64,000 nucleotides of DNA from Kiritimatiellia bacterium (lineage in GTDB: Bacteria > Verrucomicrobiota > Kiritimatiellia > SLAD01). This document shows positions 36,736 through 58,382 of this stretch, one piece after another. The stretch is taken from contig SLKG01000037.1 of the NCBI GenBank assembly GCA_007134735.1, forward strand, positions 1 to 64,000, given 5' to 3'. The notes under the pieces were generated by a model. That model saw only the letters and a program-made list of their open reading frames with translations, was not told the DNA's origin and made no database searches. The position numbers and the translations under genes were made by a program. The first letter of the stretch is position 1; the number at the start of each line of letters is the position of its first letter.

Positions 36736-36903
36736 GGTTGTAGGTTTTGGGTTATAGGTTTTAGGAAGGGTGTGAGGAAAGGCGGGTTTCCAATGATTGG
36801 AAACGGGAACAGTAATTCTTTCCAACGATTGGGAAAACGACACCGAAAACTTTCCAACGATTGGATGTTCTTCCCTGGAACCTGTAACCCAAAACCTAAA
36901 ACC
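36736..36903. repeat. Inverted repeat (21/23) enclosing three TTTCCAAYGATTGG palindromes at exact 32-bp spacing
   Basis: Arms 36736-36758 and 36881-36903; palindromes start at 36787, 36819 and 36851. Confidence 0.88.
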
Positions 36904-46798: not shown

Positions 46799-46997
46799 GA
46801 TCTATCTCCCGACCAAGCAGTATATCATGAGGCATTAAGAAGAGACAGGGTTTTGTATAAAGATATTGATTTACGAGCCGGTGCGGTGACAATGCACGAT
46901 GAGAGTGCGAATGGGCTACTTGGAAGAGCGCCCTGCTGGCTGCGGAGTGACAGGGGTGCGATCAGGATTTTATAAACAGTATGAAAGCAGGGCCGTT

Positions 46998-47922
46998 CGG
47001 TTGACGACTACGGCGACGACTACGGATTACGAAAGGATAAATTCTAAATCGTCTACCGTTGTCGTCGCCGTAGTCGTCAACCGAAATGGATCACGCAGCG
47101 AGGTGTAACGTGCAAGCAGAGTTGTCTCACGAGCGACTTGACATCTACAAGGTGTATCTCGATGCCGCGAGTTTATGCGGAGATATCGTATCATGCGCGG
47201 CGGCGCCGATCGTGGCCCTTGACCATCTGGACAGAGCCATAGAGAGCATCGGGGTCAATTTCATGCATGCGAACAGGTTGCCCTTTGGATCGCCGCAGCG
47301 GGCGTCCTACCTGGACGTTTCGATGGCCTCTACGCATGAATGCGCTGCTTCGCTGGATGTGTGCTTAGCCCGGGGAGTGGTTGAATCGCGCGCGCATACG
47401 GACGCATTGGGCAAGCTTTGGCGAATACGGGGGATGTTGCTGGGGTTGAAGCGAGTGGGAGGCAACCGTTTGAGGGAGGTGTCCGAGGTCTACGGCGGCG
47501 CCCGGTTCCCGTTTGCAGAGTTGGACTTGTATCAGGTGGCCCTCGACGGGGTACGATGGACACACGAATTGCTGGAAGAACTGGAGCCGAAGGCAAGAGT
47601 CGAACGGAAATTCGACGCAAGCACCACGGGCACCGTGCTGAATGTGGCCGAAGGCCATGGTAGGGCGAGTATTGCCGATCAAAACCGGTTTATGAATATG
47701 GCGCGGAACCATGCCTGTCAGACGCTACTACTACTCGACTTGTCGGTTGCCAGGAAGGAGATCTCGGTATCCCGTGTTGCCGAGGGTAAGGCCATGCAGG
47801 TCAGGGTCATCTCAATGCTCCATGCCTGGGGTGCCCGTAATGAGACGAAACAGGAAACAGAACATAAGAATCGGTTTACGACTACGGCGACGACTACGGA
47901 TTACGAAAGGATATATAGCTGA
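46998..47922 (+). mobile_element. Candidate IVS-like element: inverted/direct repeats bracketing a double S23 ORF
   Basis: Copy A 46998-47039, inverted copy C 47056-47083 (27/28 vs A), direct copy B 47872-47913 (41/42 vs A). C and B are terminal inverted repeats around the ORF. Confidence 0.6.
47110..47922 (+). CDS. Tandem-duplicated four-helix-bundle (S23/IVP-type) protein
   Basis: GTG start after gcgaggtg; two S23-like domains ([20 protein letters not shown]... and [20 protein letters not shown]...[39 protein letters not shown]); C-term [14 protein letters not shown] encoded by repeat B. Confidence 0.75.
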
Positions 47923-47936
47923 AGAAGGATAAAGAT

Positions 47937-49130
47937 ATGAAGGTAGTGTTGGCTTATTCAGGCGGATTGGACACGTCGGTCATTATCCAGTGGCTGATGG
48001 ATGAGTACAAGGCGGACGTCATCGCGTTTGCGGCCGATCTTGGGCAGGAAGAGGAACTGAGCGGATTGGACGAGAAGGCGAAGAAATCCGGCGCGGTCAA
48101 GGTCTATATCGACGACTTGCGCGAGGAATTCGCTCGGGATTTCGTGTTTCCCATGATCCGGGCGGGTGCGGTGTACGAATCGGGCTACCTGCTCGGCACC
48201 TCGATTGCTCGGCCCCTGATTGCCAAGCGCATGGTCGAGATTGCGCGGAAAAACCGGGCGGAAGCCATCAGCCACGGCGCCACGGGCAAGGGGAACGACC
48301 AGGTCCGGTTCGAGGTGACGGCCTATGCGCTGGAACCCGATATCCGGATTATCGCGCCTTGGCGCGAATGGTCGTTCAACTCGCGGACGGACCTGATCAA
48401 CTACGCGAAACAGCACGACATACCCGTGCCGGTAACAACGGAAAAACCGTACAGCATGGATCGCAACCTGTTGCATATCAGCTATGAGGGCGGCATCCTG
48501 GAGGATCCCTGGGCCGAACCGCCGAAGGACATGTTTAAACTGACGGCGGCACCCGAGGATGCGCCGGACGAAGCCGAGGAGGTGACCCTCGACTTTAAGG
48601 CGGGCGATGCCGTGGCTGTAAACGGGAAGCAAATGGACCCGCTGGAAGTCATGCAGACGCTGAACCGGCTTGGGGGTCGGCACGGAGTGGGCCGGATCGA
48701 CCTGGTCGAGAACCGTTTTGTCGGCATGAAGAGCCGGGGGGTGTACGAAACGCCGGGCGGGACGATCCTGCACCGGGCGCGGGAGGCGGTGGAACAGCTC
48801 ACGATGGACCGGGAAGTGATGCACCTGCGGAATTCGCTGGTGCCGCAATATGCGAAGCTGGTGTACGACGGGTTCTGGTACGCGCCGGAACGCGAGATGC
48901 TGCAGAAGGCGATGGACGAGGCGGCTTCGGCGGTGACGGGGACGGCGCGGGTGAAACTGTTCAAGGGCAGTTGTACGGTCGTCGGCCGGAAAGCGGATCG
49001 GTCGTTGTACGATCCGGAGATTTCGACGTTCGAAGCCGGTGACGCGTATAATCAAAAGGACGCGGAAGGGTTCATCAAGCTCAATGCCCTGCGATTGCGG
49101 ATCAGGGCGGCGGGAAAGAAAATGGAGTGA
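47937..49130 (+). CDS. argG: Argininosuccinate synthase
   Basis: [46 protein letters not shown]. Confidence 0.97.
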
Positions 49131-49242
49131 TGGAGTGCTGGAGTACTGGAGTATTGGAGGAATGGAGGAATGAAGTAATGGCGGGAGGCTGATCCGAACG
49201 AAGTTCCTACAGCACTCCTTCACTCCAGTACTCCATCACTCC
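49124..49242. repeat. Inverted repeat, no ORF inside
   Basis: ggagtgatggagtgctggagtactggagta (49124-49153) vs cactccttcactccagtactccatcactcc (49213-49242); about 25/30 paired. Confidence 0.8.
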
Positions 49243-57005: not shown

Positions 57006-57788
57006 ATGAAGGCCCCGAAACAATCCGATCCGGTCAAGCGGCTTCTCGAAATCATGCGGATTCTGCGATCCGGGGAAGGGTGCCCGTGGGACCGTGAACA
57101 ATCCCTGGAAACGTTGAGACCGCATCTGGTCGAGGAAAGTTATGAAGTACTCGATGCCATGGAGAGCGGGGACCGTGAGAAATTAAAAGAGGAGCTGGGG
57201 GATTTGCTCCTGCAGATTGTATTTCAATCCCAGATCTGTTCGGAGGAAGGCTCCTTCACGTTTGAGGATGTGGCCGGCCGCATTGCCGATAAACTGGTGC
57301 ATCGCCATCCGCACGTATTTGGCGATGTACAGGTGTCCGGTTCCGGGGAAGTGCTCAAGAACTGGGAGCGTATCAAGCGGGATGAGAAAGAAGAAGGTCC
57401 GCGCTCGGTAACCGAAGGCATTCCCCGCCACCTGCCCGCCTTGCACAAGGCCGAGGAGGTTCAGAAACGCGCGGCACGCGTTGGTTTCGACTGGTGCGAG
57501 ACGGAACAGGTCATGGCAAAGCTGGACGAGGAAGTGGCCGAACTCAAGGAGGCGATGGCCGGCGGAGATCCCGCGCGGGTGCGCGACGAATTGGGTGATG
57601 TGCTGTTCACCGTGGTCAATCTGGCACGCTTCGAAAAACTCCATGCCGAACAGGTTTTGAATGACGCAGTTACGCGTTTCTCCGAACGTTTCCGCCGGAT
57701 CGAAAACCATGTTCACGAACAGGGCCGGGCGCTGACCGACTACACACTGGACGAACTCGAGACCCTGTGGCAGGAGGGGAAGAGGTAG
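57006..57788 (+). CDS. mazG: Nucleoside triphosphate pyrophosphohydrolase MazG
   Basis: GCPWDREQSLETLRPHLVEESYEVLDAME; EELGDLLLQIVFQSQI; second MazG half with VRDELGDVLFTVVNLARF. Confidence 0.97.
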   Translation: MKAPKQSDPVKRLLEIMRILRSGEGCPWDREQSLETLRPHLVEESYEVLDAMESGDREKLKEELGDLLLQIVFQSQICSEEGSFTFEDVAGRIADKLVHRHPHVFGDVQVSGSGEVLKNWERIKRDEKEEGPRSVTEGIPRHLPALHKAEEVQKRAARVGFDWCETEQVMAKLDEEVAELKEAMAGGDPARVRDELGDVLFTVVNLARFEKLHAEQVLNDAVTRFSERFRRIENHVHEQGRALTDYTLDELETLWQEGKR

Positions 57789-57789
57789 G

Positions 57790-57957
57790 AAGTGTTCAGT
57801 AATCAGTGATCAGTATTCAGTAATTAGTAATCAGTATTCAGTGTTCGGTATGGAAGAGGAATGGAGGGAATATCCTTAATAGTCGACCATGCCGGACACC
57901 GCGCCATCATCGCACGATCGAAGTAACGCCCCACTGAATACTGATTACTGAACACTT
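57790..57957. repeat. Inverted repeat between convergent mazG and cysteine-cluster gene, no ORF inside
   Basis: aagtgttcagtaatcagtgatcagtattcagt (57790-57821) vs actgaatactgattactgaacactt (57933-57957); 18 nt contiguous plus 7 nt after a gap. Confidence 0.88.
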
Positions 57958-57965
57958 CTTACTTC

Positions 57966-58382
57966 TTACTTTCCCTCCGGCTTCGGCCGCCGCTTGTATC
58001 GCCAATCGATTTTCTTGCGGTCGAGATACCGTTCATATTCCTCCGGGCGGCTGAACCGGGCCTTGTAGGGCGAGGCAAAGTGTTCGCATGTGCCGACGGG
58101 CCACCCGTGGTCCCGGCAGATCTGCGGCCGGGTGTCGTATTCCCGGCACTGGTGATGGTCCGTGAGGGAGCGGCATCGGGCTCGTAGCTCGACGTGCCAT
58201 GCGTTCTCGTGATCAATGAATACGTTGACGTCCTCGTGCAGCAGGTACCAACGAATATCATCGTATTCCCGCTTGGTTTTCGGCGTGTCGATTTCAATGG
58301 CCATATAGCGGCAGCATTCCGCGCCGCATTCCCGGCAGGGCAGTGATTTTCGCGATGTACGGCAGTTTTTCTTTCTTGTCAT
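57966..58382 (-). CDS. YkgJ-like cysteine-cluster protein
   Basis: CRECGAECCRYMAIEI ... CRSLTDHHQCREYDTRPQICRDH. Confidence 0.87.
   Translation of the reverse strand: MTRKKNCRTSRKSLPCRECGAECCRYMAIEIDTPKTKREYDDIRWYLLHEDVNVFIDHENAWHVELRARCRSLTDHHQCREYDTRPQICRDHGWPVGTCEHFASPYKARFSRPEEYERYLDRKKIDWRYKRRPKPEGK

Follow-up and report, generated by a model that had tools for sequence, protein, structure and literature searches.

The open reading frame (ORF) with two S23 domains that lies directly upstream of argG in the stretch of DNA analysed here (64 kb, hereafter the window) is quite probably a copy of a horizontally mobile and very widespread S23 element, whose protein we infer to recognise the repeats that surround it. 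This reading is supported by the anatomy of the locus, the dispersal of its repeat and the pairing of repeat units with protein clades. The protein is moreover under purifying selection and the module has spread horizontally; a sister genome has one empty site, and target duplications occur at several loci. The host genome (G000) is a 2.58-Mb Kiritimatiellae draft, 91% complete, and belongs to the same family as genome G006. S23 (or IVP) proteins were first described within rRNA intervening sequences (IVS), which are ORFs between hairpin arms. They are common in bacteria and have been known for decades, and to our knowledge neither a function nor a catalytic site has been assigned to them. Nor do we know of any agent for the intergenic heptanucleotide repeats, a kind of array that includes the cyanobacterial STRR. 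The pairing of S23 proteins with repeat units joins these two puzzles, the function of S23 and the agent of the heptanucleotide repeats, and makes both testable.

The element is inserted between a nucleotidyltransferase-like ORF and argG. Its neighbourhood (names read from translations) reads argJ-argB-argD, an Rrf2-like gene, the nucleotidyltransferase-like gene, the element and argG-lysA-dapA-dapB. The locus starts with a REPIN-like hairpin of about 90 nt (46996-47085, forward strand), which is made up of repeat copy A (46997-47042, forward), a loop and the inverted copy C (47049-47085, reverse) and recurs elsewhere in the genome. A 278-aa ORF (47086-47922, forward) follows and overlaps a second direct copy, B (47871-47916, forward), the end of which is 20 bp upstream of the argG start. 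The direct repetition of A and B described in the initial annotation is confirmed, with 41 of 42 positions identical between 46998-47039 and 47872-47913 and 96% identity over 46 nt. Copy C was also rightly reported to pair with both A and B, but its arm is longer than the 28 nt first given: the arms 46996-47032 and 47049-47085 span 37 nt each, are 89% complementary and enclose a 16-nt loop, and the partner of the first arm pairs with B as well. As RNA, the A-C hairpin folds with -65.1 kcal/mol, whereas shuffled sequences average -28.8 (z -11.6). C and B are indeed inverted around the ORF; however, they are not the simple terminal inverted repeats that had been proposed, since in the clade of the window element the gene has a palindromic hairpin on each side, both in the same orientation. 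The right-hand copy in the window is a truncated half-hairpin. A tentative left leader, TTTATAAACAGTATGAAAGCAGGGCC (46960-46995, forward), bears a weak resemblance, judged by eye, to the leader TTTTATGAAAAGGTGAATGGG that precedes the hairpins of genome G001. The element encodes no transposase gene. The window copy may be immobile, because no target duplication is recognisable there and its right hairpin is truncated.

As first read, the window ORF does encode a protein with two S23 domains. The whole protein matches PF05635 with 52.6 bits (cut-off 33.8) and TIGR02436 with 42.2 bits (cut-off 24), and profile searches also link it to 2gsc and 2rld, two S23 proteins of solved structure. Its AlphaFold2 model consists of two four-helix bundles (pLDDT 88), and one bundle is matched by the same two crystal structures with a TM-score of 0.76-0.89 on the target. 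When the two halves were searched separately, the C-terminal domain (47518-47823, forward) exceeded the PF05635 cut-off with 34.2 bits, but the weaker N-terminal domain (47215-47439, forward, 22.3 bits) fell below it when taken alone (22.2 bits). The dN/dS ratio is 0.22 against the homologue of genome G004 and 0.18 against that of G001, and the protein is therefore under purifying selection. It is near neutral (pI 6.8), and nucleic-acid binding is not suggested by its bulk charge. Translation bears out the claim that the ORF reads into copy B, so that the repeat provides an in-frame tail of 14-15 residues. The G004 homologue (82% identical) does so too; those of G001 and of contig C54 of the same genome stop before the repeat, and conservation of the protein therefore does not extend to the repeat-coded tail. 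A domain duplication by unequal recombination or nested insertion at this locus, as initially envisaged, was rejected in view of 17 double-S23 proteins from many families which can be aligned across both domains. To judge from these sequences, the doubling is ancestral and the doubles form an ancestral subfamily.

Within the window the S23 locus is the only occurrence of the repeat; the genome search suggested in the initial annotation nevertheless shows that it is not confined to this locus. Indeed, its 21-mer core was found at 51 sites of the 2.58-Mb genome (at most 3 mismatches), against none for the reversed pattern used as control, and it occurs as hairpin doublets, as single copies and in tandem arrays of about 145 bp. 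Window-type hairpins are present on contigs C37, C135, C148 and C167, and tandem arrays of the repeat with the 145-bp period (approximately) on contigs C100 (locus L054) and C53 (locus L053). Genome G001 has dozens of hairpin matches, typically just upstream of start codons; its sister G005 has only a few, and no close double-S23 homologue. Among 239 genomes of the class, 20 carried both the repeat pattern and a double S23, 16 only the one, 16 only the other, and 187 neither (Fisher p 2.4e-10, a value which overstates independence, as the genomes are related and host kinship was not corrected for). One genome of the class, G134, has eight double-S23 matches and is promising for recent movement.

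In its behaviour the window repeat is closest to the REPINs (PMC3116915). As in the REPIN/RAYT systems (PMC3116915, PMC8266576), we find short hairpin repeats, inverted doublets dispersed over the genome, many extragenic copies and one or a few genes flanked by the repeat. The differences are that the associated gene encodes an S23 protein and not a Y1 (HUH) transposase, that the single repeat is not palindromic (copy B alone folds no better than its shuffles, z 0) and that many relatives have arrays of 6-9 nt units instead. The likeness nourishes what remains the main rival explanation, in which a transposase acting in trans (Y1/RAYT, as for REPINs, or DDE) moves the hairpins and the S23 gene is no more than a passenger enclosed by two of them. 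In favour of this, the genome has ten Y1_Tnp matches and the doublet is REPIN-like. However, none of the eight Y1 loci examined had the repeat nearby (at most 6 mismatches), on which ground we rejected a RAYT as the agent, and the single copies, unlike REPs, do not fold. Moreover, a passenger would be expected neither to be under purifying selection, nor to be paired with a unit across phyla, nor to occur with many unrelated units. We thus consider a transposase in trans unlikely, if still a serious contender, and prefer the S23 element proper.

Evidence for horizontal movement of the module is comparative throughout. Double S23 proteins 60-82% identical to that of the window, with the same hairpin family on both sides, were found in G004, G001, contig C54, G163, G112 and G144. 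These hairpin-S23-hairpin modules of the relatives occupy other loci and occur in other taxonomic families: those of G004 and G001, whose S23 proteins are 76-82% identical to the window's, lie at other loci, and those of G163, G112 and G144 belong to three other families. The C54 copy and the modules of three other families are 81-83% identical in nucleotides over some 910-980 bp, hairpin to hairpin; in this comparison the S23 proteins share 84-85% of their amino acids against 36-37% for argG (possibly not orthologous). Within the family, the S23 dS is 0.48 with G004 and 0.79 with G001, whereas argG and lysA are near or at saturation (1.6 to unmeasurable). Finally, a 1.1-kb module separates two operon genes in G001, and the same genes are 15 bp apart in the sister G005, an empty site. 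That the S23 dS is so much lower than the argG and lysA values argues, together with the dispersal and the empty site, that the module is horizontally mobile.

The argG site itself is less telling. No S23 gene was found upstream of argG in any of the eight relatives with at least 370 nt of upstream sequence, so the ORF is not syntenic there. The comparison of argG intervals called for initially thus gave the absence of S23; it did not give a clean empty counterpart of the exact window site, because the relatives keep argG-lysA but the sequence upstream of argG is unrelated, and we regard this site as uninformative beyond that absence. The site of contig C165 in G006 was likewise rejected as a clean empty site in the sister G008, where S23 is gone and yet an array remnant and other sequence are present.

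Traces of insertion were sought as direct repeats outside the arms, which measure 45 bp at locus L091, 40 bp at L120, 53 bp (83% identical) at L100 and 98 bp at L087. The duplicated sequence includes a start codon at L091 and L120, and the downstream gene therefore stayed whole. Such repeats were present in 16 of 136 observed pairs and in 3 of 272 permuted control pairs, although several of these 16 represent recurring hairpins and not target duplications, and clear target duplications are limited to a few loci. At 66 of 71 S23 loci the neighbouring gene upstream has the same orientation, compared to 125 of 186 control pairs. There is also a duplication of about 9 bp in G001. In G112, an 11-bp duplication, TGCAAGCGATG, stands beside an 11-bp terminal inverted repeat, GTTCTGTCAAA/TTTGACAGAAC, as would result from DDE transposons; this also counts in favour of the trans-acting transposase. 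Locus L149 of G112 (on contig C180) shows at 612-960 of the locus a tandem duplication that includes, between hairpins, a truncated copy of the C-terminus of the double S23.

Long and variable target duplications, and insertions in transcribed operons and rRNA, could also be read as mobility at the RNA level, the excised hairpin RNA being reverse-transcribed and reinserted with S23 acting like Avd. S23 does resemble the Avd protein of diversity-generating retroelements (PMC10053308), and both belong to the same four-helix-bundle superfamily. However, no reverse transcriptase, template or variable repeat was found at the window element, no reverse transcriptase was noticed adjoining the S23 genes viewed, and PF00078 has 0 matches in the window genome (91% complete), on which ground such a partner was rejected. 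Reverse transcription is therefore disfavoured, and we hold this route to be quite improbable.

The association is far more general than the window locus. In the class and in about ten other phyla, inverted arrays of short units flank the majority of the S23 genes that were looked at, and each protein clade has one unit (RGTRATC, for example). In the genome of the window nearly every PF05635 gene has a separate unit, and in the family and the class most PF05635 genes are flanked by mutually inverted arrays of 6-9 nt units. Most of their flank scores are above the 95th percentile of the controls, and the top-scoring controls are themselves S23 genes or their neighbours; the window ORF scored low because the scored span took in copy B. 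Arrays that lack an ORF are dispersed over whole genomes; they were found in G002, G006 and G008, and ORF-less hairpins in G001. A cross-phylum set of 80 loci (Verrucomicrobia, Chloroflexi, Bacteroidetes, Deltaproteobacteria, Planctomycetes and others), collected with a single protein as query and hence representing one S23 clade only, keeps the heptad RGTRATC in constant orientation. An inverted-flank score of at least 13 was reached by 63 of 78 S23 genes of this set and by 9 of 97 control ORFs. The heptad RGTNNNN occurred in the right orientation upstream of 65 and downstream of 71 of the 78 genes, against 8-9 in the wrong orientation and a background of 21/732. Among 34 double proteins, protein and array similarity are correlated (Spearman 0.40, 0/2000 permutations), and arm sequence is shared by 67% of the pairs that are at least 45% identical and by at most 2% of the other pairs. 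Part of this pairing between unit and clade is simple co-inheritance of linked DNA.

That tandem-repeat noise and errors of assembly or binning around a fast-evolving gene could produce such a picture is hardly credible. The genomes are drafts, it is true, with many contig ends at repeats; the contrast with control ORFs is nonetheless strong, and the same anatomy is found on complete cyanobacterial and Azospirillum plasmids. On the complete cyanobacterial plasmids S23 genes are flanked by inverted arrays. Two such genes, with short arrays, lie among CRISPR genes on Picosynechococcus and Anabaena plasmids (L260 and L262), in the arrangements Cas10/Cmr2-S23-Cmr3 and cas6-S23-cas4-cas1d.

Arrays of this kind have been described before. 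The TAACTGA repeats of Beggiatoaceae, Cyanobacteria and Bacteroidetes were seen as possible regulatory or mobile features (PMC4679880), and the GGGAATC-type heptads of Xanthomonas and Nostoc were studied as quadruplexes (PMC4692102); in both cases, as with the S23 arrays, 7-nt units are repeated between genes close to start codons, and the reverse complement of TAACTGA agrees with the heptad of one S23 clade. Neither paper mentions S23, and the link is proposed here. The regulatory role put forward for TAACTGA (PMC4679880), the same heptad on the opposite strand, suggests that the arrays could be binding sites of a post-transcriptional regulator: S23 would attach to repeats in the leaders of mRNAs and regulate the genes that follow, and the arrays would have spread by selection. 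Arrays and S23 genes do lie in operons, on the same strand and just upstream of start codons. However, the neighbouring genes are unrelated between genomes, and the sister empty site, the target duplications and an S23 dS lower than the host's are difficult to reconcile with such a role, which would also leave the rRNA IVS unexplained. We judge it distinctly unlikely, and less probable than the trans-acting transposase.

A mobile S23 element, by contrast, accommodates the IVS. An S23 frame and its heptad-like inverted arms are situated within the 23S rRNA gene of Azospirillum lipoferum, which connects the intergenic elements with the classic IVS; on this reading the 23S rRNA IVS is the version of the S23 element that resides in an rRNA gene. 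Like the IVS known for instance from Coxiella (S23p; PMC4990558), the window element has an ORF of the S23 family enclosed by inverted repeats that form a long stem (here C and B surround the ORF, and A-C is a separate hairpin), and both have a patchy, horizontal distribution. It differs in lying upstream of argG and not inside an rRNA gene, in having two S23 domains, in its palindromic hairpin repeats of about 90 nt in place of one terminal stem, and in its many ORF-less genomic copies. The initial idea of an IVS-like mobile cassette outside rRNA is thus upheld by the dispersed repeat, the sister empty site of a homologous module, the dS values and the rRNA IVS with the same inverted-array anatomy. 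The IVS and its proposed mobility are already known, the latter with the mechanism lacking (PMC4990558); in the open-licence literature searched we found no paper linking S23 to these repeats, and the pairing of S23 with repeats beyond rRNA appears, on this comparison of sequences, to be new.

How might such an element move? We propose that an S23 oligomer would bind its own repeat units in arms folded as a hairpin, in single-stranded DNA or RNA. A ring contacting several units at once is plausible, since the crystal of a Xanthomonas S23 is a pentamer (stated in PMC4990558). This recognition could allow the element and its ORF-less derivatives to be copied or inserted by host enzymes, presumably at staggered breaks near translation starts, which would give rise to the long target duplications. 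By analogy with rRNA, RNase III could cut the hairpin out of the transcript, and insertions would then be tolerable. If S23 is needed for movement, mobility would be driven by a protein devoid of any known catalytic domain. The element is IVS-related, with a fair chance of being a class of its own. Such a separate class would be defined by a matched pair of a non-catalytic oligomeric protein and a unit, by spread across phyla, by insertion mainly at translation starts with long duplications, by ORF-less arrays that are the long-known heptanucleotide repeats, and by its being the origin of the rRNA IVS; on this fuller proposition our opinion is evenly balanced.

The window contains further arrays and one more S23-like frame. 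An ORF-less inverted array at 36736-36903 is built of GGTTTTA-type units and is similar to the arms found around the S23 gene of contig C112 (L004). Between argG and lysA, at 49124-49242, another ORF-less inverted array has the unit TGGAGTAC, which also forms the arms of an S23 gene on contig C108 (L007). The units of a third, at 57780-57967, read CAGTRATC, which is the heptad also seen in the cross-phylum S23 clade. Lastly, a second, single-domain S23-like ORF at 60426-60671 matches with 20.4 bits, below the cut-off, and has weak inverted flanks (score 12).
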